A DNA stretch of 64,000 bases from Marinigracilibium pacificum (GTDB lineage: Bacteria > Bacteroidota > Bacteroidia > Cytophagales > Cyclobacteriaceae), in the NCBI RefSeq assembly GCF_012926615.1, contig NZ_JABBNU010000003.1, forward strand, positions 310,001 to 374,000. Direction: 5' to 3'. Position 1 is the first letter of the stretch. Every line of letters begins with the position of its first letter. This document shows, in pieces, positions 36,404 to 55,278 of the stretch. The notes under the pieces are model-generated. The model saw nothing but the letters and a program-made list of their open reading frames with translations, searched no databases and had not been told where the DNA came from. Position numbers and translations under genes: made by a program.

Positions 36404-38347
36404 TCAATTAATATTGAGTCTATAAGATATATCTTGCTTATCAAGAATTTCAAACCTTGAACTATTACTTTTATATTCTGGAACTATTGCCTTCATCATA
36501 CTAACAACGAGCATATCATTTCTTTGATCAACTGCCATTTGAAGTTTCCTGAATTGATTTTCAACTTTATCAAAATCATATTCTCTAACCTTTGCTACCA
36601 TGATTTTTTCATGGTGTGTAGGTAAAGTATTTTCTTTGGTATTCAAAAGCTCCTCATATAGCTTCTCTCCTTCTCGTAAACCGGTATATACAATTTCAAT
36701 ATCAATACCAGGTTCTAGACCTGACAATTTGATCATCTTAGTAGCTAAATCTACAATCTTAACAGATTCACCCATATCAAACAAATAGATTTCACCACCA
36801 TTACCCATAATACCAGCTTCAAGAACTAATTGACATGCTTCTGGGATGGTCATAAAATATCTGGTAATATCTGGATGCGTAACGGTAATTGGCCCTCCCT
36901 CTTTAATTTGGTTCTTGAAAAATGGGATTACAGAACCATTAGACCCTAGAACATTACCAAACCTTGTGGTTATGAACTTAGTCTTACTATCCTTAATTGA
37001 ATTAAAATAATTATTTAATGATTGAACATAAATCTCAGCCAGACGCTTACTTGCTCCCATTACTGAGGTAGGATTTACAGCTTTATCTGTAGAAACCATC
37101 ACAAACTTTTCTACCTTATATTTCACAGATAAATCAGCAAGATTCTTTGTCCCGAATACATTTGTCTTAATTGCCTCAATTGGATTATTTTCCATTAACG
37201 GAACATGTTTGTATGCAGCTGCGTGAAATACAATCTGTGGTTTATGTTCTTCAATTATATCTGCAAGCCTTTCCGTATTTGCTATATCACAAATTACTGA
37301 GCACGCCTTTGTGAATTTTAGTTTTTCCTTTACCTCTCTTTCAATTTCATAAAGAGGAGATTCTGCTTGATCCAGTAATACTATTTTACTTGGAGCTAGT
37401 CTGGTTAATTGCCTAACAATTTCAGAACCAATACTTCCTGCAGCACCTGTAACAAGTATTCGTTTATCAAAAACTTGTTCAGCAACCTTACCATTATTTA
37501 ATTTAATGCTTTCTCGACCTAATAAGTCCTCAATCTTTACCTCTTTTATCTGCTTAACTGTAAGTTCACCTTTTACCCATCTTTCAACAGGAGGAATTGT
37601 CATGACTTTCAAATTATTTTTAAGAGCCAAATCAACTATATGGTTTTTTCTTTCAAGAGGAAGATTTTGAATTGCAATAATTAACTGGTCATACTTATGA
37701 GATTTAAATTCTGAAGATTCAAAAAAAGAATCAGGACAAAATACTCCCACCCCATTAATAACTTTATTCCACATATAGGAATCATCATCAAGAAATGCAC
37801 CTATACGGATATTTTGCTTTTTATCATTAATTAGTAATTCCTTAGTAGTTCTTCCTAACTGACCTGCACCAAATATTACTACATTTCTAATTGAAGACTG
37901 CTTGGTTGAGAGAATAGTGAAAATATTTTTCACTAACAATCTATAGAAAAACAGTAGCAAAAAAGAATTAAGGAAAGTGATTATTATTACTGATACAGGT
38001 ATCAAATGTAAATTGGACTCACCAATGTACTTATAAGCAAAATTAAAAGCTACCGATAAAACCAAGTTAATTAATACCGCATAGAAAATTCTCAATCCAT
38101 CATGAAGGCCGGTATATCTTACTATCCCAGCATAACTTCTAGTTGCAACAATTGCTACTGCCGCTCCTACAACAGACACAAGAAGCCCGATAGTAAAGTC
38201 GTGAGTGAGAAGTTGTTCAAAATCAAAATTGAACCTTAATAAATAAGCTGAAAATGCGGCGATGGCAACAAGGGTCAAATCAATGAACAATATTATCCAC
38301 CTAGGCAGAATTCTCAGCCTGTCAAACAGAGTATAAACGTTTCGCAT
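36404..38347 (-). CDS. UDP-sugar 4,6-dehydratase, membrane-bound (PglF/WbpM/CapD type)
   Basis: A 647-residue protein. Four membrane helices lie in the first 140 residues. A nucleotide-binding-like domain follows (VVIFGAGQLGRTTKELL), then the catalytic short-chain dehydrogenase domain with NAD motif GAAGSIG (301-307). The STDKAVNPTSVMGASK segment (419-434) has Met430 where other SDRs have Tyr, with Lys434, the hallmark of UDP-GlcNAc 4,6-dehydratases. It makes the 4-keto-6-deoxy sugar from which bacillosamine-type amino sugars are built. The matching aminotransferase, acetyltransferase and sugar transferase genes lie upstream on the same strand. Confidence 0.92.
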   Translation of the reverse strand: MRNVYTLFDRLRILPRWIILFIDLTLVAIAAFSAYLLRFNFDFEQLLTHDFTIGLLVSVVGAAVAIVATRSYAGIVRYTGLHDGLRIFYAVLINLVLSVAFNFAYKYIGESNLHLIPVSVIIITFLNSFLLLFFYRLLVKNIFTILSTKQSSIRNVVIFGAGQLGRTTKELLINDKKQNIRIGAFLDDDSYMWNKVINGVGVFCPDSFFESSEFKSHKYDQLIIAIQNLPLERKNHIVDLALKNNLKVMTIPPVERWVKGELTVKQIKEVKIEDLLGRESIKLNNGKVAEQVFDKRILVTGAAGSIGSEIVRQLTRLAPSKIVLLDQAESPLYEIEREVKEKLKFTKACSVICDIANTERLADIIEEHKPQIVFHAAAYKHVPLMENNPIEAIKTNVFGTKNLADLSVKYKVEKFVMVSTDKAVNPTSVMGASKRLAEIYVQSLNNYFNSIKDSKTKFITTRFGNVLGSNGSVIPFFKNQIKEGGPITVTHPDITRYFMTIPEACQLVLEAGIMGNGGEIYLFDMGESVKIVDLATKMIKLSGLEPGIDIEIVYTGLREGEKLYEELLNTKENTLPTHHEKIMVAKVREYDFDKVENQFRKLQMAVDQRNDMLVVSMMKAIVPEYKSNSSRFEILDKQDISYRLNIN

Positions 38348-38370: not shown

Positions 38371-38601
38371 CTAATCTTTCTTTCGAGCATCAACAAGTTT
38401 CTTTATACCAAGCGCAGCTCCGGCGGCAACAAGTATTTCCAACCCGCCAAAAGGAACAGCAAATGGATTTCCAGGAGGTAAAGGGGGCCCCGTAGGCGGT
38501 GGCCCAGGGGGATTTGGTTGTCCCATTAACTCAAACCCAATTGTAAGCATCACTAAAAACATAATGATGTATGCGCCATATGTTATATATGCTCTCTTCA
38601 T
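38371..38601 (-). CDS. Mini-protein with signal peptide and exosortase-like (PID-CTERM-like) tail
   Basis: A 76-residue protein. Residues 1-28 form a signal peptide ending ELMGQ. Residues 29-48 are a Pro/Gly linker (PNPPGPPPTGPP...). Then come VPFGG, a 17-residue hydrophobic helix (LEILVAAGAALGI) and a basic end KKLVDARKKD. This tripartite tail is the layout of exosortase sorting signals and closely resembles the Bacteroidota PID-CTERM type, with PFGG for PIDG. I start at ATG 38601; an upstream in-frame start at 38622 would spoil the signal peptide. An XrtF-type exosortase is encoded 6.5 kb away on the same strand. Almost nothing would be left as mature protein, so it may be a linker peptide. 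Pairing with XrtF is inference. Confidence 0.68.
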   Translation of the reverse strand: MKRAYITYGAYIIMFLVMLTIGFELMGQPNPPGPPPTGPPLPPGNPFAVPFGGLEILVAAGAALGIKKLVDARKKD

Positions 38602-38682
38602 GCACTCAATGTTTGGTAGCAAGTTATGAAAACCTGTCCTAAATCAAAAACAGGTTATTCATGATTTCTTGCTTTATACCAA

Positions 38683-41600
38683 TTAATATTTTATAAATCT
38701 TAATGGAACAGACCTACTTCCCAGATCCAGGTTAATAATATATGATCCTGGTTCCAATTCAGTAACGTCCAACTTCGATTGCCATACACCACTACTTAAT
38801 TCCAGACTAATTTCCATTAAAATGCGACCATCAATCGTTATGATGGAGGCATTAACATTATTGTAACTTTCTTTATCTGTTATTCTAATATTTAATTCAT
38901 TATCTGTTGGTACGGGATAAAGACTATATTCAATATTAAAATTATCATCTATCCCGGTTATTACGAACACATCTTCAACAAAGGATGTACATCCATTAAC
39001 TGATACTTCTAATTTATATTGTCCGCTTTCATTAAACTCTAAATATTGACCTGTTTCACCTTCTAGGAGTTCACCGTTAAAAAACCATTGATTTCCTTCC
39101 TCATAGTTTGATACTAAATATCTACCATCATTTAATATTTCTGGTGACAACTGATTATTTTCAATATCTAATACTTCAATCTGGGTCCATTGGTCACAAC
39201 CAGCTCTTCGTCCCTTAATAACAAATGTCGAAGAAGAACCAGCCTCCAGATCATTTCCGGCTATTTCAAAAATAAGTTCATTACCTGTACCCTCTTGTTC
39301 AGAATAAACAGAATCACCAGCAAACAAACCATAAACAATATTGGCATCAGAATCAAATGACACTAAAGCGTTACTATCATTACATGAAGAAGATAAAGTA
39401 TAATTGAGATTAGAATTCAATCCGTTAGATTCTAATCTTATTGCAAACCTCAAATAGTTTTTACTTTGTTCATCATCATTAATTTCAAACTGGTAGGTCA
39501 TTCCTTCCTGAAGTTGAGTTTCTTCACCAGTATAATTATCTATTAGCACAGGTGATGCATTTGGGGCAAAATCTGTGACTCCATCAAAATTAATAGTATA
39601 GTTACCTTTTTTAATATTCCAAATAGCAAGTTGGATACTACCATCACAACCTGGTCCTGACGTACTGTTTACAGCTAGATATTTACCTTCAGGAGTAATA
39701 CTTGAGATATTAAATATCCTATTTGAAAGTTTCCAGGCATCTTTATCACCTTCAAATTCAGTTGAAGCATCCGGATTAATATCTAGTAATGTTTCATCTG
39801 ATTTAGTTCCATCAGATAATACTATTCTTAATAATCCTTCAGGCTGAGTATATCTCTGAAAATCTCCTGATGTTGTTGATTTATGAGATTCTCTCAAAGT
39901 AATATTCGGACTATTATTTCCATCAGTATAAACCCAGAATCCTTGCCCTTTAGCAATATCTTTGGATCCTCCATTTGTACCCATACCACCAGTCGTGTAT
40001 GTTACATACTGACCTGCACCCGGATCCCATAAATAAACAGTCTCTGCAACACCACTAAAACTTGCATCTGAAGAGATTGACTCCCAATCAAGTGTTGCTG
40101 GAAATGGATTACCTATTAAATTCCATCCATCAGCCTCACTATCACCAGTATTAGTAAATGATAATGCAGGAGAAATATCTCCATTATGGAGTACTCCTCT
40201 TAAATCAGCTATAATATCACTAGAATTACCATAAACAAATGACGCGTAACCAACTCCCTTAGTTAATATCTCTGAGTTTGCTGCTGTAGGGTACGCAATG
40301 TATCCTTGTTGCTTATCTCCGGTTACTGATTCATCATAATAAAATAAAGAAGGATTATTGGTTGTACTACCCGCACCGGTAAAACTTCCTGTCACATCAT
40401 AATCATCCTGTAATTGAGAAACGGCAGCATTATTTACAAACCCTGTTATATAATGATAATAATCTGTTCCTCCATTACCAGGAATATATCGCTGAACTGT
40501 AACATTACCTACAATAGAAGCGCCCGTTAGCAATTCCGATACTTCAGATTCATAAGTTGCACTGGAAATTAAAACCAGTTCTCCTGCACCTCCTGAACCA
40601 TCTGCATCAACCCTGTCATTTATAGAAAGTAAAGTAAGTCTGTTTCTCAATTCGGATATACCACTTTCGAAGAATAAATCAGTTACACCCGCAGTGGTAT
40701 TTCCATTTACTTCAATGTCATAGAAAGGTATAGTATTATTAGCAATAACATACTGCGCATTATTTAATCCATTAAATCTTACAGTACCTGTACCTGGGTT
40801 GAATGTCCCGTTATTCGTAAAGTCACCAGTGACATTTAAAAGATTCGGAGCTTGTAAAGTCCCATCAATGATCACGTCATGAAATCCAGGAGTATTACTA
40901 CCCATAAAACTTGTTGTTCCATTAAACCTCACAACACCATCCAAAGGATCAAAAGTTCCGTTATTTGTAAAGTCTCTGGCAATTTGAAGTTCTCCACCGT
41001 CTGCACCTGGAATAGCAGATAAAGTTGCACCACTATTGATCACGACAAAATTAAGAGCAGCTTCACCTGATCCACTCATAACTGTTGTTCCGCTAAAAGA
41101 GGTGGTGCCTGCAACATCTATTAAATTATTAACAGTAAAATCACCAACAATATTAATGTCTGTAGAACTCGATGGAACTAGTACTGCAGAAGTAACAATT
41201 AGCTCTCCAAAATTTATCACACTTAGCCCAGATACAGTTGAGGTATCATTTATACCTCCGATAAATTCAAAGACTCCATCAATAAAATCTGTGCCGGCTA
41301 CAACAGTTAAATCACCTCTTAAACGAGCATAGTTAGTTCCAATATCAAGTATACCATTTGTGATAGACATATCCCCATTAACCGAAAATGTCTGATCCAC
41401 TGTAATTCTTTCTCCACCTGTTTTAGTGAAATTATTCAATTCAATAGCACTAGTTGTTAACTCCGGACCGGAAATAATTGCAGCTGCTGAATTACTGTAA
41501 ACCAGATCATAAACACCAAGGAAATTTGGAGTGGCGGTAATACTTCCATCACGTCTTTCTATTAAACCATTATCTGTAATAGCAAATGTACCTTGAGCAT

Positions 41601-43458
41601 TATCAACTATACCAGCTATTAACATTAATGAGTCAATAGCTATAGCTGAATTTGTCACAAGAGATGATCCATCACGCTGCATTTGGAGTTTGTTCAGTTG
41701 TTGATTTGTTCCAAAAGAAACAACTGCTGGTAAAGAACCTGCTCCTGATATGGTAAGATTTGAATTATTGTTTGAATTAAAATCACCAGTATTCCTAGTG
41801 AAATCACCATTTACAACTAATGAAGCATCATCTATATCAAATATCCCTGCTTCTTGATCTAAGGTACCTAATATTGTAAGATTTCCTAAAAGATTTACAG
41901 ATCCTGAGGAAGTTCTATTTATAGTCAGGTCATTAAGAATATTTGTGCTTCCTGTAAAAGGTATAACGCCAAAACTGCCAGTACCTCCTATAACAAGGTT
42001 TGAAGATGCACTCCCTGCTAATGAGCCGTTAGAAACTGTTGTCACACCATTTAATGTAAGTGTATTAGCTCCTATTGATAACTCCCCTTCTTCAAATGCC
42101 AAAACTCTATTAATACCAATTAGAATATCAGAATTCATAACTACACCTGAAGGATTATTTATAATAACATTTACATCTCCAGTATTAGGAAACCCATTTC
42201 CAAACTTTTGTTCCGCAAGAGCTGAGAAACTAAATGTAGAGTTCAAAGAATAAACTCTTGCACCAGAGTTTCTAATAGTTCCATTGGTAGTGCTATTTTG
42301 AATTTCTCCATTAGGGTAAAACGAATTAAATACAGCAGTACCAGCAGATTGTATTGTAAAATCCCCTGACCCATTAAAATATGAATTTGGAGAAAACTCT
42401 AAAATCTCACCTGAAGCTATGTTTATTGATGGGCCTTCACCAATACCAAATGCGTTTGTTGACACATTATAAATATGTGTGCCAGAATTCACAAATGATA
42501 TTGTCCCTCCTGACCCCACTTCTAACCCATAAAGACCTCCACTACTAATATTAAGATCTCCAGAAATATTTATATCACCAATCCCAGTATCAGATAGGTA
42601 GTTATCTATAGTTCCATTTAAATTCACATCTCCTCCAACATTAAGAGTAGTAGTCCCTACTCCACCTTTTATCCCAAAGCCAGAGTTTCCTGAAACATTA
42701 AAGTCTCCATCAATATTAATTGTTGAAGAGGTTTCTGTTAATATAACTGCTTCACCATTTGTATTTAATAAACTAAAATCCCCTGCAATTACTGTTACTG
42801 AAGTAAATCCAGCCATAATAAAACCAAAACCAGAGTTTATTGACCCTGACTCAATAGTCAAATTCCCAAAAGTCTGATTCAAATTATTAGGAAAAGCTGA
42901 AACAATACCACGTAATATTAAATTAGAATTACTACTCCAATTCGCCAGAGGTATATTATCCCCATTCTTATCATAATAAAATGATGCCCCGTCATTAACT
43001 GATACCCTTGTTGAAGATGCATTATTGATTGTTCCTGTATAAAAGACATCACCATTTAATGACATAGTAGATGAACCAAAACCTGCTTGCAAAGTTATCG
43101 TACCATTTATATTAAGAGTACTTCCTAAAGAAGCAATAATATCAATACCTGAACCATTTGCCAAATTCAACACTCCTCCATTAGCAACCGTTAATATCCC
43201 TCCATCTAAAATGGTTATCTGATCTACAGATATTGTACTAATAATTGTCACTTCATTTCCTGATAGAATACTAATAACTCCGTCAGCTGAAGTAGGACTT
43301 GAAGATGCTGGGTTCCATGTTGCACCATTAAAGGTTTCCCAAGTGGACGCATCACTCCAGTTACCGGATTGGGCTGATCTGAAATCTCCGGTGTTTTGTG
43401 CCTTTAAAAAGCTTACTGAAGTAATAAATAAAAAAAATAGAAGTAAACGTGTTATCAT
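38683..43458 (-). CDS. Giant T9SS-secreted surface protein, beta-helix/repeat rich
   Basis: A 1591-residue protein. A signal peptide (LLLFFLFITSVSFLKAQ) precedes the opening motif SGNWSDASTWE. Residues 60-1000 are a long series of Asn/Gly/Thr/Ser-rich short strands (LTVANGGVLNLANGSGI, LNVGGDVNLNGTIDN, VTGDFTNNGTFNPGTGTVRF) that read as a beta-helix or fibre. The next 400 residues look like beta-sandwich domains, with few cysteines. The final 80 residues (YSLYPVPTDNELNIRI... ELEPGSYIINL... FIKY) are a type A T9SS sorting domain. It should be exported by PorV/T9SS and anchored or released at the cell surface, probably as an adhesin. A near-perfect 18-bp dyad precedes the gene. Confidence 0.88.
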   Translation of the reverse strand: MITRLLLFFLFITSVSFLKAQNTGDFRSAQSGNWSDASTWETFNGATWNPASSSPTSADGVISILSGNEVTIISTISVDQITILDGGILTVANGGVLNLANGSGIDIIASLGSTLNINGTITLQAGFGSSTMSLNGDVFYTGTINNASSTRVSVNDGASFYYDKNGDNIPLANWSSNSNLILRGIVSAFPNNLNQTFGNLTIESGSINSGFGFIMAGFTSVTVIAGDFSLLNTNGEAVILTETSSTINIDGDFNVSGNSGFGIKGGVGTTTLNVGGDVNLNGTIDNYLSDTGIGDINISGDLNISSGGLYGLEVGSGGTISFVNSGTHIYNVSTNAFGIGEGPSINIASGEILEFSPNSYFNGSGDFTIQSAGTAVFNSFYPNGEIQNSTTNGTIRNSGARVYSLNSTFSFSALAEQKFGNGFPNTGDVNVIINNPSGVVMNSDILIGINRVLAFEEGELSIGANTLTLNGVTTVSNGSLAGSASSNLVIGGTGSFGVIPFTGSTNILNDLTINRTSSGSVNLLGNLTILGTLDQEAGIFDIDDASLVVNGDFTRNTGDFNSNNNSNLTISGAGSLPAVVSFGTNQQLNKLQMQRDGSSLVTNSAIAIDSLMLIAGIVDNAQGTFAITDNGLIERRDGSITATPNFLGVYDLVYSNSAAAIISGPELTTSAIELNNFTKTGGERITVDQTFSVNGDMSITNGILDIGTNYARLRGDLTVVAGTDFIDGVFEFIGGINDTSTVSGLSVINFGELIVTSAVLVPSSSTDINIVGDFTVNNLIDVAGTTSFSGTTVMSGSGEAALNFVVINSGATLSAIPGADGGELQIARDFTNNGTFDPLDGVVRFNGTTSFMGSNTPGFHDVIIDGTLQAPNLLNVTGDFTNNGTFNPGTGTVRFNGLNNAQYVIANNTIPFYDIEVNGNTTAGVTDLFFESGISELRNRLTLLSINDRVDADGSGGAGELVLISSATYESEVSELLTGASIVGNVTVQRYIPGNGGTDYYHYITGFVNNAAVSQLQDDYDVTGSFTGAGSTTNNPSLFYYDESVTGDKQQGYIAYPTAANSEILTKGVGYASFVYGNSSDIIADLRGVLHNGDISPALSFTNTGDSEADGWNLIGNPFPATLDWESISSDASFSGVAETVYLWDPGAGQYVTYTTGGMGTNGGSKDIAKGQGFWVYTDGNNSPNITLRESHKSTTSGDFQRYTQPEGLLRIVLSDGTKSDETLLDINPDASTEFEGDKDAWKLSNRIFNISSITPEGKYLAVNSTSGPGCDGSIQLAIWNIKKGNYTINFDGVTDFAPNASPVLIDNYTGEETQLQEGMTYQFEINDDEQSKNYLRFAIRLESNGLNSNLNYTLSSSCNDSNALVSFDSDANIVYGLFAGDSVYSEQEGTGNELIFEIAGNDLEAGSSSTFVIKGRRAGCDQWTQIEVLDIENNQLSPEILNDGRYLVSNYEEGNQWFFNGELLEGETGQYLEFNESGQYKLEVSVNGCTSFVEDVFVITGIDDNFNIEYSLYPVPTDNELNIRITDKESYNNVNASIITIDGRILMEISLELSSGVWQSKLDVTELEPGSYIINLDLGSRSVPLRFIKY

Positions 43459-43552: not shown

Positions 43553-44674
43553 TTATAATAATCTTACAATTGTATCTTTTATTCGCTCTTTATCTTCATC
43601 TGTCATTGACGAACAACTTGGCAAACATACACCTTTTTCGAATAATGTTTCGGACAATTTATCGCCATAATAAGGGAACTCCTCGAAAACCGGTTGAAGA
43701 TGCATTGGCTTCCATAAAGGTCGTGCTTCAATATTTTCTTCTTCCAATCTAATCCTTAACTCTTCCCTATCAAAAGGTGTTTCTCTTAATAAGGCTGTGG
43801 TTAACCAATAATTACTAAAATATCCTTCAGGCTCGTTTAAAAATTCAAATCCACAATTAGCGAATGCTTCTTTATACCACTTGTTAACAGATCTCCTTTG
43901 GATTATTCTTTCATTCAACACCTCCATTTGCCCACGACCTATGCCAGCACTAATATTACTTAACCGATAATTATATCCAATTGTAGAATGTTGATAATGT
44001 GGGGCCTGATCTCTTGCTTGTGTAGATAAAAATTTCGCCTTATCAACAAACTCTTTGTCATTACTCATTAAGGCTCCCCCACCACTAGTGGTAATAATCT
44101 TGTTCCCATTAAAGCTCAAAATTGCAAGATCCCCAAATGTACCGGTCTTTTTACCATTAATTGAAGCACCTAATGATTCTGCAGCATCCTCAATAACAGG
44201 AATTTCATATTTTCGAGCAATTTCAATGATCTCTGGCATTTTGGCTGGCATACCATAAAGATGCACCGGAATAATTGCTTTTGGTTTTTTTCCTTTAGAT
44301 AGTCTGTCTTTTATTGCATACTCCAATGCTTCAGGATCCATGTTCCAGGTATCCTTTTCCGAATCAACAAAAATAGGAATAGCTCCCTGATATCTGATTG
44401 GATTGCAAGTACCAGAAAATGTAAATGTAGAACAAATGACTTCATCGCCTTGACCTACCCCAAGAATTATCAATGCCAGGTGGATGGCTGCCGTTCCTGA
44501 AGATAAAGCAGCAACATGAAAATTATCACCATGATATTCTGCAATTTGATCTTCAAATGCATTCAAGTTTGGACCTATAGGGGCAACCCAGTTTGTATCG
44601 AATGCTTCATTAACATAAGCCTGTTCCATCCCTCCCATATGTGGAGCAGACAGATAAATTCTACTTTTGGTCAT
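43553..44674 (-). CDS. DegT/DnrJ/EryC1/StrS aminotransferase (PglE-like)
   Basis: A 373-residue PLP enzyme. It opens IYLSAPHMGGMEQAYVNEAF, as in UDP-4-keto-6-deoxy-GlcNAc aminotransferases, and has the PLP-binding Lys192 in SFNGNKIITTSGGG. VIEDAAESLGA carries the PLP-contacting Asp. It puts the 4-amino group on the product of the 4,6-dehydratase encoded at 36404. Its start overlaps the end of the exosortase accessory gene by 14 bases, tying the two systems together. Other StrS sugars are possible, but the presence of PglF-, PglD- and PglC-like genes favours a bacillosamine-type product. Confidence 0.92.
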   Translation of the reverse strand: MTKSRIYLSAPHMGGMEQAYVNEAFDTNWVAPIGPNLNAFEDQIAEYHGDNFHVAALSSGTAAIHLALIILGVGQGDEVICSTFTFSGTCNPIRYQGAIPIFVDSEKDTWNMDPEALEYAIKDRLSKGKKPKAIIPVHLYGMPAKMPEIIEIARKYEIPVIEDAAESLGASINGKKTGTFGDLAILSFNGNKIITTSGGGALMSNDKEFVDKAKFLSTQARDQAPHYQHSTIGYNYRLSNISAGIGRGQMEVLNERIIQRRSVNKWYKEAFANCGFEFLNEPEGYFSNYWLTTALLRETPFDREELRIRLEEENIEARPLWKPMHLQPVFEEFPYYGDKLSETLFEKGVCLPSCSSMTDEDKERIKDTIVRLL

Positions 44675-45110
44675 TTTCTTGTTTTTGTTTCATATAAAAT
44701 GCTGGAATTAATAGCGCCATTAAAACCGGATTCAAAATTAATCGATGGATAAAATTAATCAATGGCCCATTATAATTCGGGAAGTATAATTTTAAAATTA
44801 CATACGGGATAAAGAATAAAACAAAGCCTCCAATTTGAATCAATATTGCAATCAGCACAAAGTCCTTTTTACCAAATAAACCAGCGATTACGGCGATTGC
44901 AAAAATATCATTTAACACAAATCTTAGTGCTCTGTTCCAAAGAAAAAAAGTGATCTTTTCCCATTCTCCGGTATCTACCCCTAGACTTTGGGTAATAAGA
45001 TCTACCCAACCCCATTTCTGGGTTATATAGACTACTGCTAAACCTACTAATCCGAATATTAGCCAAAACACCCTTAATGAATTGGATAAATTATTCCTGT
45101 CTTTATTCAT
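44661..45110 (-). CDS. Exosortase F system-associated membrane protein
   Basis: A 149-residue protein with four membrane helices (VFWLIFGLVGLAVVYI; LNDIFAIAVIAGLF; FVLIAILIQIGGFVLFFIPYVILKLYF; LNPVLMALLIPAFYM) and the conserved-looking WNRALRFVLND loop. I recognise this as the small partner nearly always encoded beside XrtF in Bacteroidota. Its job is unknown. It overlaps the exosortase gene by 8 bases upstream and the aminotransferase by 14 bases downstream. Confidence 0.8.
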   Translation of the reverse strand: MNKDRNNLSNSLRVFWLIFGLVGLAVVYITQKWGWVDLITQSLGVDTGEWEKITFFLWNRALRFVLNDIFAIAVIAGLFGKKDFVLIAILIQIGGFVLFFIPYVILKLYFPNYNGPLINFIHRLILNPVLMALLIPAFYMKQKQENDQK

Positions 45111-45651
45111 GTGCAGATTCTATTCTTTGAAATCTCTTTCCGGACACCCACCACCACCATAAAGCAAATACTACAATATAAATGATTGCTGTAAATCCGA
45201 ATTTATGCATAAAGGCCATTTTGGAAGGGAAGTATTGAGCGATATAAAAAAGAAGTCCAATCCTGATAAGGTTAAATAAGTGAATTATTATTAATCCGAG
45301 AGGTATAAACCAAAGCCACTCTTTTTGAGAAGGTCTGAATGATAATACAAAACATAAAAATACAATAAATACATTTATCCCATTACAGCCTTCATATACA
45401 GACAACACACTTTGTTCACCTTTCAAAATGTATACATATTTCCCATTCACCGGAGAAAAAGAAGATATAGAATTATCTGAATTACTAAAAAAAGATATTG
45501 CGCTTGCCGTTTGTTTACTCACAAACTCTGTCATTGAGTCCGGGTGATCACCAAAACTCTCTACATAATACCCATAAACCAGATTTAAAATAAAGTATAG
45601 AATCAGGAACTTCGCAAGAAACAATAATATCGGTTTGTACTCTTTTAACAT
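45103..45651 (-). CDS. xrtF: Exosortase family protein, XrtF type
   Basis: A 182-residue membrane protease/transpeptidase. The exosortase triad is visible: Cys89 in VYEGCNGINV, Arg130 in LFNLIRIGLL and His149 in FMHKFGF, followed by the aromatic IYIVVFALWWWW helix. Exosortases cut proteins at a C-terminal PEP-CTERM-like signal and are thought to transfer them to another anchor, in parallel with sortases. The gene starts 2 bases after the acetyltransferase stop and overlaps its accessory gene, so it sits inside the sugar operon. The best candidate target in the window is the 76-residue protein at 38371-38601. Confidence 0.88.
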   Translation of the reverse strand: MLKEYKPILLFLAKFLILYFILNLVYGYYVESFGDHPDSMTEFVSKQTASAISFFSNSDNSISSFSPVNGKYVYILKGEQSVLSVYEGCNGINVFIVFLCFVLSFRPSQKEWLWFIPLGLIIIHLFNLIRIGLLFYIAQYFPSKMAFMHKFGFTAIIYIVVFALWWWWVSGKRFQRIESAHE

Positions 45652-45653
45652 AA

Positions 45654-46292
45654 TTAAATTTCTTTAGCAGGAATACCCACTACAGTTTTATCAGCTTGAA
45701 CATCATCAATTACTACTGCTCCACTACCCACTTTTACATTTTCATGAATATGGCACCCATTTATCAAGTTGGCACCACTACCTATTAAACATTTTTCTTC
45801 TATAATGATATTACCAGCGATATTCACTCCAGGCATTACTGAACAAAAATGTCCGATCCTTACATCATGACCTATGGTAGTATTTAAGTTTATCAAAACG
45901 AACTCACCAATCATTACATCTGTGGTTATTTGAACTCCGGAACTTATTATTGTCCCCTCTCCAACCTTAACAGAATTAATATTTGAAATAAAAGCTTTGG
46001 GATGTATTAGTTTAGGGAAAAACAAATAAGGTTGCCCTTTTAACTTGTCAAATATTCTAGACTTTATTAAGGGATCTCCAATTGCCAAAACAACTGCCAA
46101 TTTTTGCTCAGTAATATTAAGTTCATCAATTCCACCAAGAACATGGTGACCGGCTACTTCAGCACCTTTTTTTAATCCATCATCATAAAAACCTAATATA
46201 TCCCAGGTCTTGACTACCTGATTAATATTTTGGACAAGAGATAACACTTCCTTGCCCAATCCTCCGGCTCCTATGATTACGAGTTCACTCAA
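45654..46292 (-). CDS. Sugar O/N-acetyltransferase (PglD/NeuD family)
   Basis: A 212-residue enzyme with the PglD-type N-terminal Rossmann part ([17 protein letters not shown]) and a C-terminal left-handed beta-helix of hexapeptide repeats ([34 protein letters not shown]). His142 of GHDVRIG is the expected catalytic base. It would N-acetylate the 4-amino sugar to a di-N-acetylated product. The start is TTG at 46292, whose last two bases lie in the TGA of the preceding gene; no ATG is available nearby. Confidence 0.9.
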
Positions 46293-46897
46293 TTTTCTGA
46301 TCCTTTAAATTTTTCCATTGTAACAGAAGTATTACTACTAATTCCTTCGGCTACAAACACTTTCTTTATTGTTAAAATAAGAATTTTAATATCCAATACA
46401 AAAGACAGGTTATCTACATAATAAACATCATAATCAAATTTCCTTTCCCAACTGATTGCATTTCTCCCATTGACTTGTGCCCAACCGGTTATTCCCGGTC
46501 GAACTTCATGTCTCCGAGCCTGGATATCATTATATAATGGCAAATACTCTACTAAAAGAGGTCTTGGACCAATAATAGACATATCCCCTTTTAATACATT
46601 AATCAATTGAGGCAACTCATCTAATGATGTTTTTCTCACAAATCGTCCCATTCCATGAAGCCGAATTTCATCAGGTAGAAGTTCACCGTTATCATCTCGC
46701 TCATCTGACATAGTTTTAAACTTTATCAAATTAAATACTTTACCATTTTTCCCGGGACGAGGCTGTACAAAAAAAGCTTTTCCACTCTGATTTATTGCCA
46801 ATAATATCCAGACAACTAGTATTATTGGTGCTAATAGAACCAATCCGATAAAACTTAAACTAAAATCAAGTATCCTTTTGAAAAAATTCCTGTACAT
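46289..46897 (-). CDS. Phosphoglycosyl transferase (PglC/bacterial sugar transferase)
   Basis: A 202-residue monotopic enzyme that loads a sugar phosphate onto undecaprenyl phosphate, starting a glycan. The N-terminal re-entrant helix ([21 protein letters not shown]) is followed by [13 protein letters not shown] and the catalytic Asp93-Glu94 (SLDELPQL). IIGPRPLL and [14 protein letters not shown] complete the family pattern. The short form without extra membrane helices is the PglC type. It is the first gene of a tightly packed minus-strand operon with pglD-, xrtF- and pglE-like genes. Confidence 0.94.
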
Positions 46898-47007: not shown

Positions 47008-48216
47008 ATGGATAGAAAACCACGAATACTCCGGGTTACAACTGTAGCCTTGTCGTTAAGGACTTTGCTAAAAGGCCAGATGAAATTTATGAAAGAAAAT
47101 GGATTTGAAGTTTTGATGACTAGTGCTGCCGATGACCAGATTAAATCACTGGAAGAAGATGAGGGAGTCAAACACGTTTCTATCCCCTTGACGAGGACAA
47201 TTACTCCATTTCAGGATTTAAAAACAATAAAAGAAATGAGGTCTTTGATCAAATCATTTAATCCTGATATTGTTCATACCCATACTCCAAAAGCCGGTTT
47301 GATAGGTATGCTAGCTGCGAAAGTAACTGGCGTCCCAATCAGGATGCATACTGTTGCGGGAATGCCGTTAATGGAAAAATCAGGGATAATAAAAAAAATC
47401 CTCCTTGCAGTTGAAAAACTAACTTATGCAGCAGCAACAAAAGTTTATCCTAATTCAAATACCCTTGCCGAATATATAGTCAGAAATAATTTAACAAATA
47501 AAAACAAGCTCCATGTAATAGGAAATGGTTCCAGTAATGGAATTGATACTTCTCATTTTAGTAAAAATGATAAGATTGAAAAAGAAGCTGAATTACTTCG
47601 CTCAAAATATGAACTAGGCGGAAATTTCATATATGGTTTTATTGGTAGAATAGTTGGAGATAAAGGCATAAATGAACTTGTCAAGGCATTTGAAAAAATC
47701 AATGCGTCAAACCCTTCAACTCGATTATTACTTGTCGGTCCTTTTGAATCAGAGCTTGATCCTCTTCAACCAGAAACTGAAAGCCTGATTAAAAATCACC
47801 CAAACATTATCAATACAGGGTTTCAGAAAGATATTCGCCCATATCTTGAATTAATGGATGTTTTTGTATTCCCGTCATATCGGGAAGGGTTTCCAAATGT
47901 TGTGATGCAGGCAGGATGTTTTGACCTTCCTTGTATTGTATCTGATATCAATGGTTGTAACGAAATTATAATAGAAGGTAGAAATGGCACAATTATACCT
48001 CCCAAAGATATTGAATCCCTCGAAAGAGCGATGATTGATGTCTTAAACAACCAAGAATTCCTTGAAGGAATGGCAAGTCAGGCCAGAGAGTTAATAACAT
48101 CACGATACGACCAAAAAGTTGTCTGGGAAAAAATACTGGAGGAATATGACAAAAATTTAAAGGAAATTGGAGTTACAAGAGCTTACAGGGAATCTTCAAC
48201 TATCAGCAATAGCTAG
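47008..48216 (+). CDS. Glycosyltransferase, GT4 family (PglA-like)
   Basis: A 402-residue two-domain GT-B enzyme. The acceptor domain has DIVHTHTPKAGLIGMLAAKVTGVP. The donor domain has GFIGRIVGDKGINELVKAF and the nucleotide-sugar site FPSYREGFPNVVMQAGCFDLPCIVSDINGCNEII. It resembles the enzymes that add the second sugar to a PglC-loaded lipid. It is divergent from the pglC-like gene with 110 bases between, and its last 21 bases overlap the convergent deacetylase gene. Confidence 0.9.
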   Translation: MDRKPRILRVTTVALSLRTLLKGQMKFMKENGFEVLMTSAADDQIKSLEEDEGVKHVSIPLTRTITPFQDLKTIKEMRSLIKSFNPDIVHTHTPKAGLIGMLAAKVTGVPIRMHTVAGMPLMEKSGIIKKILLAVEKLTYAAATKVYPNSNTLAEYIVRNNLTNKNKLHVIGNGSSNGIDTSHFSKNDKIEKEAELLRSKYELGGNFIYGFIGRIVGDKGINELVKAFEKINASNPSTRLLLVGPFESELDPLQPETESLIKNHPNIINTGFQKDIRPYLELMDVFVFPSYREGFPNVVMQAGCFDLPCIVSDINGCNEIIIEGRNGTIIPPKDIESLERAMIDVLNNQEFLEGMASQARELITSRYDQKVVWEKILEEYDKNLKEIGVTRAYRESSTISNS

Positions 48217-51903: not shown

Positions 51904-54900
51904 TTAATATTGATGGTCAATCATTAATTTCTTATAAAAAATTTCATTATCACTTCTAAATTGAAGAATATAAATCGATGCTTTCAAATCAACTATCGAA
52001 ACACTTACTTCTTCATTATTTTGAAAAATTCCTGAGTATAATTTTCTTTCTAGCTTCCCATCGGTTGTGTAAATAAATATTTCATATTCATTTACTGTGC
52101 CAGAACTATTAATGAAAGAAACTCTTCCTTTGGAAGGGTTTGGATAGACTTTAAATTCATTTACCTTATTAGGATTAATTGCAAGCAGACCATTTGATAG
52201 AGTTATATTAAAGTTAACTATTGAATTATTATCTGAATAATCATAAGCGACAAATTCCACATTATTTATACCTAAATCACTTTCTCCAAAAATCTCCTTA
52301 CTCAGACTAATGCTTTTGATTCCACAATTATCATAACTTCCAATATCCAGATCTACAGCACTTAAACTTATTAAGTACCCATTAAACACTAAAACTGTAT
52401 CTTTAATTAATATAACCGGACTTAGCGTGTCTAAGACTGTGACCAGTGAAGTAGCCGAACCTATGTTTCCTTCCAAATCAGTCACAAATAGCGTTACCTG
52501 ATTATCTCCTAAATCTGAACAATCAAATTGAGAAAAGTTAACTTCGAATTTCAAATTTTCAATTGACGTTTCATTGTCTGTAGAACCATCGTCAATATCC
52601 TTAGCATTTAGCTCCACCATTCCATGTTCGTCCAGGTATAAATTAATATCCTTGGTTACAACCAAAGGCGACTCCAGATCACCTAATGAATATTTCCATA
52701 ATTCGGATCCTCTTGAGTCATCATTTCCCACAAAAATGAGTTCATCATTCAAAACACCTATTAGTTGGATAACTTCACCATCAAATAATTCCTGAATTTG
52801 AACATTCAAAGTTGAATTTTCAACGGTCCAAATATTATTCCCATTTACTCCATCATTAGCCTTAAAATAAACTAATTCATTATGATTGATATAATCTCCA
52901 GGAAAAGAACTTGATGTACCTTCCCAAATATCTTTAATTAAATAGGTACCCTGGGAAGTCCCGTCACTAACCCATAACTCCATTCCAGACTGACCATTGT
53001 CTGCATTAAAATATAAATTATCACCAGAGGTATGCAGGTTTTCGATAAAGGCATATTCAGACACCGGATCTACATCTGCTACAGGTACAGTTCCTTCAAC
53101 ACTTCCATTTGTTTTCCATAATAAAACATCCGTGTTATTTGTATATCCTACGAAGAATAATTCATTAGCCTTACCTTTTAAATTATTGGGATTTAGCAAT
53201 TCATCCCAAACTATTTGAGTTCCATCCGATGTACCATCAGATCTCCAAAGTGTATTTTCAGCGGCAAAATAAAGTAAAGAATCATTAGCTTCAAGAAATT
53301 GAATATTTGATGATGAATTTCTATTGTTAAGATCCTTCAACAAGTACGTGCCATTAATAGTTCCATCTGTAACCCATAATTCTCTGCCATGGATTCCATC
53401 TTCGGCAAGGAAATAATATTTACCATCGTATAAAATAAATTCATCAGGAAATGATGACTCAATACCTGGATTAATATCTACCAAAATTGAATAGCTTTCA
53501 TTCAATCCATTATAAACCCATAATTCCCTCCCATATTCAGGGGTTGTAATTGCAAATAAAATTTTATCATCAATTACATTTAATGAACTTATTTCATCCT
53601 GCATGGAAACTGTAGTTATTTCAGTGAGTTGAGTAATTTCACCATTAGTCAGGCTCCATAATTCGTACCCTAAATCATCTGTATATGCAGTAAAAACTAC
53701 TTCTTGATTAAAAGAAACATAATTACCAGGATCAGAACCATTTTCACCACTGTTTAAATCAGCCAGCATATAAGTACTGGATATTTCCCCATTAGTCACC
53801 CATGGCTCTTTTCCATCAATTCCATTATTAGCAATAAAGTATAATTGACCATTAATAATTTTAAATTTGCCAGGTTCAGAAGAAGCACTGCCTTTTTCGA
53901 TATCAATAGTTAATTCAGTTTTATAATCCGTCAGGTTTGTCATCCATATTTCTCTACCATTCAATCCATCGTTTGCAGCATAAATAAGATTTTCTCCAAG
54001 AACTGAAAACATCGACGGATTTGAACTTATTTCTCCATTATAAATATCTTTTACAATCCTTGTTCCATCACTACTTCCATCGCTCACCCATAACTCATTC
54101 CCAAACTGTTCTGTATTTGCTGTGAAATACATGTCCTGATCAACCAGAATAAATTTATCAGGGCTACTACCCAATGACCCTTCCTGGATATCCTTTAAAA
54201 GTGCTGTGGAGTTCCCGTCACTTACCCATATTTCAATTCCATATTCGGTATTGTAACTAACAATAAACAATTTAGCTGAACCAGATATAATATTATAAGG
54301 TCGTTGATCAAAATGTGCCTCAACGTTATCAATTCCAATCAATTTCCAGGTTTTAAAATTAGTTCCATCAGAACCACCGAAATATAACTCCCCTTTAAAT
54401 GAAGTTAAATAATCAATGTATCCTTGTTGACTTCCTGGATTAAGATCATAAACTAATCTGGTATTTTCTAATGTGCCATCACTGACCCATAATTCACGTC
54501 CATGGACACCATCATTAGCAGTAAAATATAAAAGACCTCCGGCCTCAACAAATTGTTCGGGATTAGAAGAGCCTTCAGTATTTATATCTAAAACTAGCTT
54601 AGCCGATTCATCTGTCAAATTGTAAATCCATAATTCTGTACCGGTATAATCCGGAGAATTGAAATCATTAGGATTAGCTGAAAAATACAGATTGTTTCCA
54701 TATTCAAATAATTCATTGGGAAAAGACGAACTAGCTCCCGGACTTAGGTCTACAACTAAAGATGTACCTGAAACTGTCCCATCTGATTTAAATATTTCAA
54801 CACCATATTCATTCGATTGGGCAACAAAATAGCATTCATTGTTAAAGGATGTCAATTGATAGGCAAATGACCCGGTAGCTCCCTGGTTAATATCCTGTAA

Positions 54901-55278
54901 CATAAAGGTTCCAACCTCTGTACCATCACTTACCCATATTTCATTACCATATTCAGGCGATGTTGCAGTAAAGAATAACTTTCCGTTTATAGATGTTAAT
55001 TCCCTTGGATTTGAGCTTTGCTGACCTGGGTAAATATCTTTAATAATATGTGTTCCTGATAGTGATCCGTCAGTTACCCATAATTCAGCTCCATTTACCT
55101 CATCAAAATACACAAAGAATGCCTGATCCTGTGCCACCACAAAATCATTTGAGCTTCTGATGCCATTTGAATTGTTATTATTCTGATTGATATCTTGTAT
55201 TAAGGAATATTGAGCAACTAAAAAAGGTGGACAAATAAAAAATAATAGTATTAATATGGTTAATAATGAAAATTTCAC
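51904..55278 (-). CDS. ELWxxDGT-repeat surface protein with T9SS sorting domain
   Basis: A 1124-residue secreted protein: signal peptide (SLLTILILLFFICPPFLVAQ), then about seventeen repeats of some 50 residues. Each has a variant of G-x-E-L-W-V-x-D-G-T-x-x-G-T, followed by xKDIxPGxxSSxP and a xLYFxAxDxxxG strand. This is the ELWxxDGT (hyalin-like) repeat, likely a beta-propeller or solenoid. Two HYR/Ig-like modules follow (VTLFVTDLEGNIGSATS; NCGIKSISL). A type A T9SS domain ends the protein (VYPNPSKGRVSF... KLMIDHQY). Expected at the outer surface. The ligand is unknown. Confidence 0.92.
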   Translation of the reverse strand: MKFSLLTILILLFFICPPFLVAQYSLIQDINQNNNNSNGIRSSNDFVVAQDQAFFVYFDEVNGAELWVTDGSLSGTHIIKDIYPGQQSSNPRELTSINGKLFFTATSPEYGNEIWVSDGTEVGTFMLQDINQGATGSFAYQLTSFNNECYFVAQSNEYGVEIFKSDGTVSGTSLVVDLSPGASSSFPNELFEYGNNLYFSANPNDFNSPDYTGTELWIYNLTDESAKLVLDINTEGSSNPEQFVEAGGLLYFTANDGVHGRELWVSDGTLENTRLVYDLNPGSQQGYIDYLTSFKGELYFGGSDGTNFKTWKLIGIDNVEAHFDQRPYNIISGSAKLFIVSYNTEYGIEIWVSDGNSTALLKDIQEGSLGSSPDKFILVDQDMYFTANTEQFGNELWVSDGSSDGTRIVKDIYNGEISSNPSMFSVLGENLIYAANDGLNGREIWMTNLTDYKTELTIDIEKGSASSEPGKFKIINGQLYFIANNGIDGKEPWVTNGEISSTYMLADLNSGENGSDPGNYVSFNQEVVFTAYTDDLGYELWSLTNGEITQLTEITTVSMQDEISSLNVIDDKILFAITTPEYGRELWVYNGLNESYSILVDINPGIESSFPDEFILYDGKYYFLAEDGIHGRELWVTDGTINGTYLLKDLNNRNSSSNIQFLEANDSLLYFAAENTLWRSDGTSDGTQIVWDELLNPNNLKGKANELFFVGYTNNTDVLLWKTNGSVEGTVPVADVDPVSEYAFIENLHTSGDNLYFNADNGQSGMELWVSDGTSQGTYLIKDIWEGTSSSFPGDYINHNELVYFKANDGVNGNNIWTVENSTLNVQIQELFDGEVIQLIGVLNDELIFVGNDDSRGSELWKYSLGDLESPLVVTKDINLYLDEHGMVELNAKDIDDGSTDNETSIENLKFEVNFSQFDCSDLGDNQVTLFVTDLEGNIGSATSLVTVLDTLSPVILIKDTVLVFNGYLISLSAVDLDIGSYDNCGIKSISLSKEIFGESDLGINNVEFVAYDYSDNNSIVNFNITLSNGLLAINPNKVNEFKVYPNPSKGRVSFINSSGTVNEYEIFIYTTDGKLERKLYSGIFQNNEEVSVSIVDLKASIYILQFRSDNEIFYKKLMIDHQY

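Follow-up and report, generated by a model that had tools for sequence, protein, structure and literature searches.

What does the exosortase XrtF process, and why should its gene lie amongst genes for the synthesis of a sugar? Both questions are raised by a locus of Marinigracilibium pacificum within a stretch of 64,000 nt (contig NZ_JABBNU010000003.1, positions 310,001 to 374,000), which we call the window and whose numbering is used throughout. The original prediction drew attention to five minus-strand genes there, and suggested that the sorted proteins might become joined to the lipid-linked sugar made by the neighboring enzymes. We find that xrtF is part of a block of eight genes extending from 46897 to 36404 on that strand, including those of a large cargo protein of the type IX secretion system (T9SS) and a miniprotein of 76 aa. 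The block is probably a surface-assembly module, in which XrtF and its partner process the dedicated miniprotein in the service of cargo display.

The gene block of M. pacificum

Analysis of the open reading frames (ORFs) of the minus strand from 46897 to 43553 gives pglC, pglD, xrtF, the gene of the XrtF partner and pglE in that order. The recomputed gaps are −4 (PglC/PglD), +2 (PglD/XrtF), −8 (XrtF/partner) and −14 bases (partner/PglE), and the places, strand and spacing of all five genes agree with the original prediction. The same strand runs on to 36404, and plus-strand ORFs inside the genes are all short. Beyond pglE there are 94 bases before the cargo gene, 81 between this and the miniprotein gene, and 23 before pglF. 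A PglF-like gene had been noted farther along the strand, and is found at 36404–38347; the two genes between pglE and pglF had not been mentioned. The arrangement is beyond chance, because it recurs across many genera.

XrtF (182 aa, 45103–45651) belongs to its family according to TIGR04128, with a score of 126.9 bits against a cut-off of 90. The catalytic residues Cys89, Arg130 and His149 are present as described before, and none of them varies among the 12 XrtF sequences aligned. The adjoining gene (44661–45110) encodes the exosortase F system-associated membrane protein of 149 aa, matched by TIGR04127 at 41.8 bits (cut-off 35), so that XrtF has the adjacent partner looked for in this family. 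The score with the XrtX model NF046081 is 114.7 bits, below its cut-off of 170, and the enzyme is therefore not classed as XrtX. No solved exosortase structure was matched by the XrtF alignment at E ≤ 1.

The miniprotein gene (38371–38601, minus strand) is read from the ATG at 38601, the ORF being open to a TTG at 38622. By eye the protein begins with what looks like a signal peptide, followed by a linker rich in Gly and Pro that starts from Gln-Pro, the sequence PFGG, a hydrophobic segment and a tail of basic residues; the linker is 23 residues in length up to the motif. Judged by eye from the sequence and an alignment of 36 family members, this is the PID-CTERM layout (NF046080) of signal peptide, short motif, helix and C-terminal basic tail. 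In the alignment the helix is Gly-rich and conserved, and the tail matches NF046080 at E ≤ 0.1 in 22 of the 36. Where the window has PFGG, P-I-T-G-I-E is common in the clade. The miniprotein is the sole match to NF046080 in its own genome at E ≤ 1, with about 20 bits. A second profile (model A2), made from 36 miniproteins with that of the window included, likewise finds a single one there. Some rows of A2 come from the set of 59 genomes discussed below, none comes from XrtX-type genomes or from G035, and 105 of 199 first-look candidates were scored. The miniprotein is the best candidate for an XrtF substrate. NF046080 matches within long ORFs (such as one of 374 aa at L060) were taken as chance.

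The gene that precedes it (38683–43458, minus strand) encodes a T9SS type A cargo protein of 1591 aa, whose C-terminal sorting domain is matched by PF18962 at 29.3 bits (cut-off 27). It is a probable surface adhesin.

Conservation of the block in Cytophagales

A scan of GTDB species genomes with an XrtF alignment gave 80 named loci. The closest is that of Mangrovivirga halotolerans, followed by Marivirga, Fulvivirga, Chryseolinea, Ohtaekwangia and many metagenome-assembled genomes (MAGs) of Cytophagales; a few MAG records carry other labels. Partner genes were counted in the 52 loci with flanks of 5 kb or more on the upstream side and 9.4 kb or more downstream. pglD and the XrtF partner are present in all 52, pglC in 46, pglE in 45, pglF in 44, and the T9SS cargo and the miniprotein in 43 each. 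All seven accompany xrtF in 41 of the loci. Cargo, miniprotein and pglF occur all together in 43 and are all missing in eight, leaving one mixed locus (L213). The association of XrtF with bacillosamine-type genes originally proposed thus stands as a tight and conserved block in Cytophagales, but not as a general rule, as we discuss below.

The packing recurs too. A pglD-type gene is the nearest annotated gene upstream of xrtF in 75 of the 80 loci, with an overlap of 4 bases in 37 of the 75. Of 51 adjacent pairs of cargo and miniprotein genes 24 overlap, 16 of them by 4 bases, and 11 of 49 adjacent pairs of miniprotein and pglF genes overlap by 4 bases. Gene starts were placed at the first possible codon, so these overlaps may be overstated. 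In a genome of the same genus (L065, G001) both the cargo gene and pglF are broken into two ORFs, either by sequencing error or by decay.

The eight loci lacking the trio, the mixed locus L213 and the genomes G072 and G271 were followed up, making a set of 11 in which G271 is the genome of L229, so that 10 are distinct. All 11 proved to have a miniprotein, in every case behind an ORF with a T9SS C-terminal domain (CTD). That of L229 lies ~10 kb downstream, just past the stretch that was examined, and in five cases (L283, L284, L285, L292 and L293) pglF comes after the miniprotein. The miniproteins lie behind cargo ORFs even away from xrtF, and therefore in these genomes the cargo–miniprotein pair holds together when separated from the exosortase. 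With the last 100 residues removed, 51 of the 54 large CTD proteins encoded at the 80 named loci match the cargo of the window at E ≤ 1e-5.

In 51 miniproteins from the named loci the linker is 11–29 residues long, and 11–20 in 50 of these, as cut by a text pattern. Its composition is 36% Pro, 24% Gly and 12% Asp. There is no Ser or Thr at all in 29 of the 51 linkers, and ordinary O-glycosylation of the linker is therefore impossible in those 29. A C-x4-C motif is present in 6 of the 51 (L253, L254, L257, L273, L275 and L277).

Exosortase and miniprotein occur together

The pairing of exosortase and miniprotein was examined in a set of 59 genomes, comprising that of M. pacificum and 58 relatives. 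TIGR04128 has a match in 26 of them, above cut-off in 16. NF046080 (E ≤ 0.05) matches in 24, all among those 26, and in none of the other 33. The two left over, G017 and G035, have a miniprotein in the operon. Overall, all 26 genomes that carry an XrtF/XrtX-type gene have the miniprotein, and none of the other 33 has it. With model A2 the counts are 25 of 26 and 0 of 33, the one missed being G034, which NF046080 matches. In 12 genomes of this set XrtF is linked to the sugar genes; here the miniprotein scores above the NF046080 cut-off in one, below it in nine, and is unmatched at E ≤ 0.05 in two. The XrtX-type loci of 14 relatives have the same kind of substrate, and the sugar cluster is absent from them apart from two stray weaker matches.

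The association extends to a class set of 395 genomes, where there is a PID-CTERM match in 186 of 222 genomes with TIGR04128 compared with 15 of 173 without (Fisher p = 3e-55, with genomes treated as independent). In the set of 59, most genomes with the XrtF operon have one PID-CTERM match; with a single TIGR04128 match there are 12 in G009 and 5 in G048.

Relationship between XrtF and XrtX

A tree was constructed for 80 exosortases: that of the window, 40 from the 80 named loci (every second one), 17 strong XrtF sequences and 22 others, with L085 (G051) left out. The exosortases of Cytophagales form one group (support 99/93) nested in a larger XrtF group of 64 rows (support 100/98), which comprises 41 from Cytophagales including the window, all 17 strong XrtF sequences and 6 others. 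XrtX-type sequences fall outside the larger group. Seven rows above the TIGR04128 cut-off (L069, L072, L074, L075, L107, L111 and L113) lie on the XrtX side, and therefore this cut-off alone does not define XrtF.

The gene 3′ of xrtX may encode a protein remotely related to the XrtF partner (hhalign probability 70%, P = 4e-5 in a single comparison); in the alignment used, at least one row (L077) seems to be unrelated. A 502-aa ORF at L068 that might have been a fusion of the XrtF partner with a PglE-type protein was rejected; by eye its N-terminal part is unlike the partner, and it was taken as an out-of-frame extension.

The genome of M. pacificum has a second exosortase, XrtN (287 bits), on contig C32 (L324:9277-13105), adjoining its known target, the XrtN VIT-domain protein (769 bits). 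An exosortase with its own target beside it fits with separate, dedicated exosortase–substrate pairs.

PID-CTERM genes often follow T9SS cargo genes

The pairing with cargo was also examined outside the named loci, using 47 PID-CTERM genes with a locus and a match above the NF046080 cut-off (18 of them in the relatives set, 29 in the class set). L050 and L059, being below cut-off, were left out, as were extra copies in G009 and G048 that lacked loci. The 18 include L040 from G042, a genome with a partial sugar block, and the 47 include two pairs of near-copies (L035/L057 and L139/L140). There is an upstream ORF of at least 120 aa on the same strand in 38 of the 47, and the T9SS type A domain TIGR04183 is present in 32 of these, of which PF18962 marks 29. 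T9SS type A cargo thus lies upstream of 32 of 47 PID-CTERM genes, counting the nine without a usable ORF as misses, compared with ~1.4% of genes; this background was estimated from 60 PF18962 matches in the genome of the window, taking one gene per 1150 bases. Family matches of the upstream proteins (16 Pfam and 25 listed NCBIfam) were considered chiefly for the T9SS domain. Our own narrower T9SS model marks 11 of the 18 PID-CTERM genes of the relatives set, and therefore the cargo–miniprotein pairing is also found with exosortase loci that have no sugar genes.

A possible fusion of T9SS cargo with a PID-CTERM tail in G244 (a 995-aa frame) was discarded; membrane segments were seen by eye, and no T9SS domain. 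The C-x4-C motif, often as CWPPPC, occurs shortly before the PID motif in 18 of the 47 genes (loci among L115–L142). Elsewhere in the window a further T9SS cargo of 1124 aa (51904–55278, minus strand) has ELWxxDGT repeats in 12 stretches.

XrtF outside the Cytophagales

Twelve genomes of the families f73 and f41 were taken to be Flavobacteriaceae and kin from XrtF scores of 205–243 bits. Using hidden Markov models trained on Cytophagales, no pgl neighbors were found within 20 kb of xrtF in 11 of the 12 loci; the sole exception (L307) has one PglF-like ORF nearby. Of five further strong XrtF genomes, L321 has pglC, pglD and pglE nearby and L319 has pglF. A survey of XrtF–pgl adjacency, which the original prediction had named as a way of checking it, thus goes against a general association, given that the XrtX-type loci of the 14 relatives lack the cluster too. 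The miniprotein persists in 9 of the 12 Flavobacteriaceae-like genomes, six being found by NF046080 (E ≤ 0.05) and three by inspection (G277, G122 and G158). The match in G221 is weak, but the miniprotein lies behind a T9SS CTD ORF. Because most of these genomes have the miniprotein and almost none has sugar genes beside xrtF, we conclude that the exosortase–miniprotein pairing is general and that the bacillosamine link is largely a feature of Cytophagales.

The miniprotein gene lies upstream of a gene that we take to be PdxA-like by name in 6 of 10 genomes compared by synteny (L297, L299, L300, L301, L302 and L303), and beside such a gene in G191 and G391 also. In the f73 genomes, taken as kin of Flavobacterium johnsoniae, the xrtF pair is mostly beside a short conserved gene (presumably GAF-like), whereas that of the window is in the pgl operon. 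Fjoh_1448 and Fjoh_1449 of F. johnsoniae belong by name to the same exosortase and adjoining partner families.

Deletions of these F. johnsoniae genes have been described (PMC10936215). Loss of xrtF or its partner abolished zorbs and strongly reduced biofilm. All seven columns of Table 2 in that study are the same for deletions of xrtF, the partner, porU, porZ, a DegT aminotransferase and Fjoh_0651, and one column differs for sprA and porV. Only the sprA mutant was nonspreading among the nine. The resemblance of the xrtF deletions to those of porU and porZ is consistent with a T9SS-linked role. Fjoh_0651 was complemented by a 434-bp fragment that included the promoter. On size and phenotype alone, our guess is that Fjoh_0651 is the XrtF substrate; the exosortase substrates were left for future work by the authors, and we found Fjoh_0651 treated in no other open-licence paper.

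The sugar enzymes

PglF-, PglE-, PglD- and PglC-type enzymes, which together make up the bacillosamine pathway, are all encoded in the block, and family matches bear out the assignments previously made from enzyme signatures for the five packed genes. The first gene (46289–46897) encodes a PglC-like phosphoglycosyl transferase of 202 aa (PF02397, 210 bits), whose best PDB match is 8g1n, named as a diNAcBac-1-phosphate transferase, at 268 bits, with the next class at 114. The PglD/NeuD-type acetyltransferase (212 aa, TTG start, 45654–46292) is matched by PF17836 and by TIGR03570 at 188.5 bits (cut-off 160.8). Its top PDB matches are VioB (92 bits) and perosamine N-acetyltransferase, the UDP-N-acetylbacillosamine N-acetyltransferase 3bss scoring 53 bits. 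The PglE/LegC-type 4-aminotransferase (373 aa, 43553–44674) matches PF01041 at 334 bits and TIGR04181/LegC at 397.8, just below the cut-off of 420; its top PDB matches are 1o61 and 4ztc (341 and 338 bits). The last gene of the block encodes a PglF-like membrane 4,6-dehydratase of 647 aa (PF02719, 409 bits), for which the top PDB matches are 5bju–5bjy, the WlaL protein, with up to 301 bits and the next at 169. We take 1o61 and 4ztc to be Campylobacter PglE, and 5bju to be Campylobacter PglF.

The enzyme families suggest that the product would be a diacetylated 4-amino sugar of bacillosamine type, linked to undecaprenyl. The exact sugar may differ from diNAcBac, since the PglD-type enzyme is nearest to the VioB and perosamine acetyltransferases. 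In 45 of the 80 named loci (e.g. L205, L207 and L210) the 3 kb upstream of xrtF contain at least two PglD/NeuD-type ORFs, and the extra one may perform a second acylation, at another position or on another sugar. Outside the block there is a divergent glycosyltransferase gene upstream (47008–48216), and the flanks carry glycosyltransferase genes and a polysaccharide deacetylase-like gene.

Comparison with known systems

Among the closest known systems is XrtX/PID-CTERM (NF046081/NF046080), where there is also a short secreted substrate with a P-I-D-G-G motif, a helix and a basic tail. The gene of that substrate commonly adjoins the one for the exosortase, and commonly follows one for T9SS cargo. 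The locus described here differs in that the window enzyme scores below the XrtX cut-off and above that of XrtF, the miniprotein has PFGG, and the sugar operon is present. It may be that the curators of NCBIfam already treat XrtX and PID-CTERM as a pair, judging from the consecutive accessions. In the open-licence literature we found nothing under PID-CTERM, and only unrelated papers under XrtX. In PEP-CTERM/XrtA (EpsH) loci the exosortase lies among polysaccharide genes that include a phosphoglycosyl transferase of their own, and there are many larger substrates per genome. The window, by contrast, has one tiny candidate substrate and other enzyme families.

All four enzyme types are shared with Campylobacter PglF/E/D/C, and it is apparently from that pathway that the nearest solved structures for C, E and F come; the window set is unlike it in lying together with genes for an exosortase and a T9SS cargo. 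The linking-sugar pathway of Porphyromonas gingivalis uses the sortase PorU. The Wbp/Vim pathway of P. gingivalis ties a modified amino sugar to the surface anchoring of T9SS cargo (PMC7468200), a likeness to the window, which differs in having an exosortase and a bacillosamine-type set in place of that different sugar.

Possible roles of the miniprotein and the sugar

We propose that the miniprotein encoded at 38601–38371 is the one dedicated substrate on which XrtF and its partner act. Cleavage by signal peptidase and XrtF would leave a short Gly/Pro-rich peptide, of ~23 residues in the window and 11–20 in 50 of 51 relatives. Since the miniprotein gene sits behind the cargo gene and overlaps it in 24 of 51 pairs, the peptide would most likely serve the surface display or anchoring of the adhesin-like cargo. 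The PglF, PglE, PglD and PglC product would start a surface glycan in the same assembly. Gene content, order, conservation and co-occurrence are direct readings of the sequences; cleavage, its site and the role in display are predicted from them.

A number of observations weigh against this proposal. NF046080 gives the window miniprotein just 19.9–20.1 bits, below the cut-off of 26, so that it falls outside the family as formally defined. The genomes cannot be counted as independent samples. Of the 222 TIGR04128 genomes of the class set, 36 have no NF046080 match, six of them Flavobacteriaceae-like, and no recognizable miniprotein was found in three of the 12 Flavobacteriaceae-like genomes (G250, G079 and G349). 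Conversely, of the 15 genomes with NF046080 and no TIGR04128, 11 have weak matches (E = 1.6e-4 to 0.05), and G146, G230, G323 and G346 have strong ones (E ≤ 1e-7), possibly through another exosortase or missing contigs. Of 17 XrtF genes from other families, 14 have no sugar genes around them. The link of miniprotein to cargo is drawn from gene adjacency, and in 8 of the 9 Flavobacteriaceae-like genomes with a miniprotein it lies beside the PdxA-like gene, and not just behind T9SS cargo. Cleavage is itself a prediction. Lastly the shared row of the F. johnsoniae table is coarse; the aminotransferase and Fjoh_0651 deletions share it, and those of porV and sprA differ in one column.

Exosortases are commonly found in polysaccharide loci, and the sugar genes might simply supply a surface polysaccharide, the miniprotein being an XrtF substrate with no chemical link to glycan or cargo. 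The glycosyltransferase and deacetylase-like genes flanking the block, and the 11 of 12 Flavobacteriaceae-like loci where XrtF is unlinked to sugar genes, agree with this. Yet the same eight genes keep their order and overlaps across many genera, and the cargo–miniprotein pair stays intact away from xrtF, so that we consider this explanation tenable but somewhat doubtful. A closer connection, in the spirit of the original prediction, would have XrtF transfer its substrate onto the lipid of bacillosamine type that the operon produces, giving a glycolipid-anchored peptide. We found no paper in the open-licence literature treating an exosortase together with bacillosamine. The tight packing in Cytophagales, with its pglD–xrtF and miniprotein–pglF overlaps, would suit such a transfer, and there is precedent for a T9SS cargo C-terminus joined to a modified amino sugar (PMC7468200). 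Against that, XrtF has no pgl neighbors in Flavobacteriaceae-like genomes that mostly have the miniprotein, the XrtX-type loci of 14 relatives lack the sugar cluster, and the same clustering is expected if both merely belong to a polysaccharide locus. Transfer to the lipid is thus unlikely, and joining the sorted proteins to a glycolipid is not needed to explain the data.

It is also conceivable that the miniprotein is never cut, and serves either XrtF or the cargo as a chaperone or a small membrane subunit. Its tiny size and conserved Gly-rich helix would be in keeping with this, as would the predicted status of cleavage. However, the tail fits a curated sorting-signal model in 22 of the 36 family members, and 12 PID-CTERM matches to one TIGR04128 match in G009 is what would be expected for substrates and not for subunits, making an uncleaved role distinctly improbable. 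The better-supported reading is that of a dedicated exosortase–miniprotein pair tied to T9SS cargo, which shares a sugar operon in Cytophagales.

Implications

The most far-reaching version would have XrtF build an anchor, the Gly/Pro-rich peptide being joined to the PglF/E/D/C amino-sugar lipid and holding the T9SS cargo encoded just upstream. This is a speculation to which we attach very little likelihood. Plants have short GPI (glycosylphosphatidylinositol)-anchored peptides that are comparable in logic to a peptide–glycolipid anchor. If true, it would be a bacterial peptide linker made by an exosortase, with a logic like that of the amino-acid-modified linking sugar of Porphyromonas.

The targets of XrtF have hitherto been unknown, and one small, conserved candidate makes the question directly testable by tagging and mass spectrometry. 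Such miniprotein genes are probably unnamed in databases, because the window member and most of its sugar-linked relatives fall below the cut-off of the PID-CTERM model. The pairing may offer a reason why loss of XrtF in F. johnsoniae looks like loss of T9SS surface attachment. Two C-terminal sorting routes, those of the exosortase and the T9SS, are linked at the gene level in many Bacteroidota.

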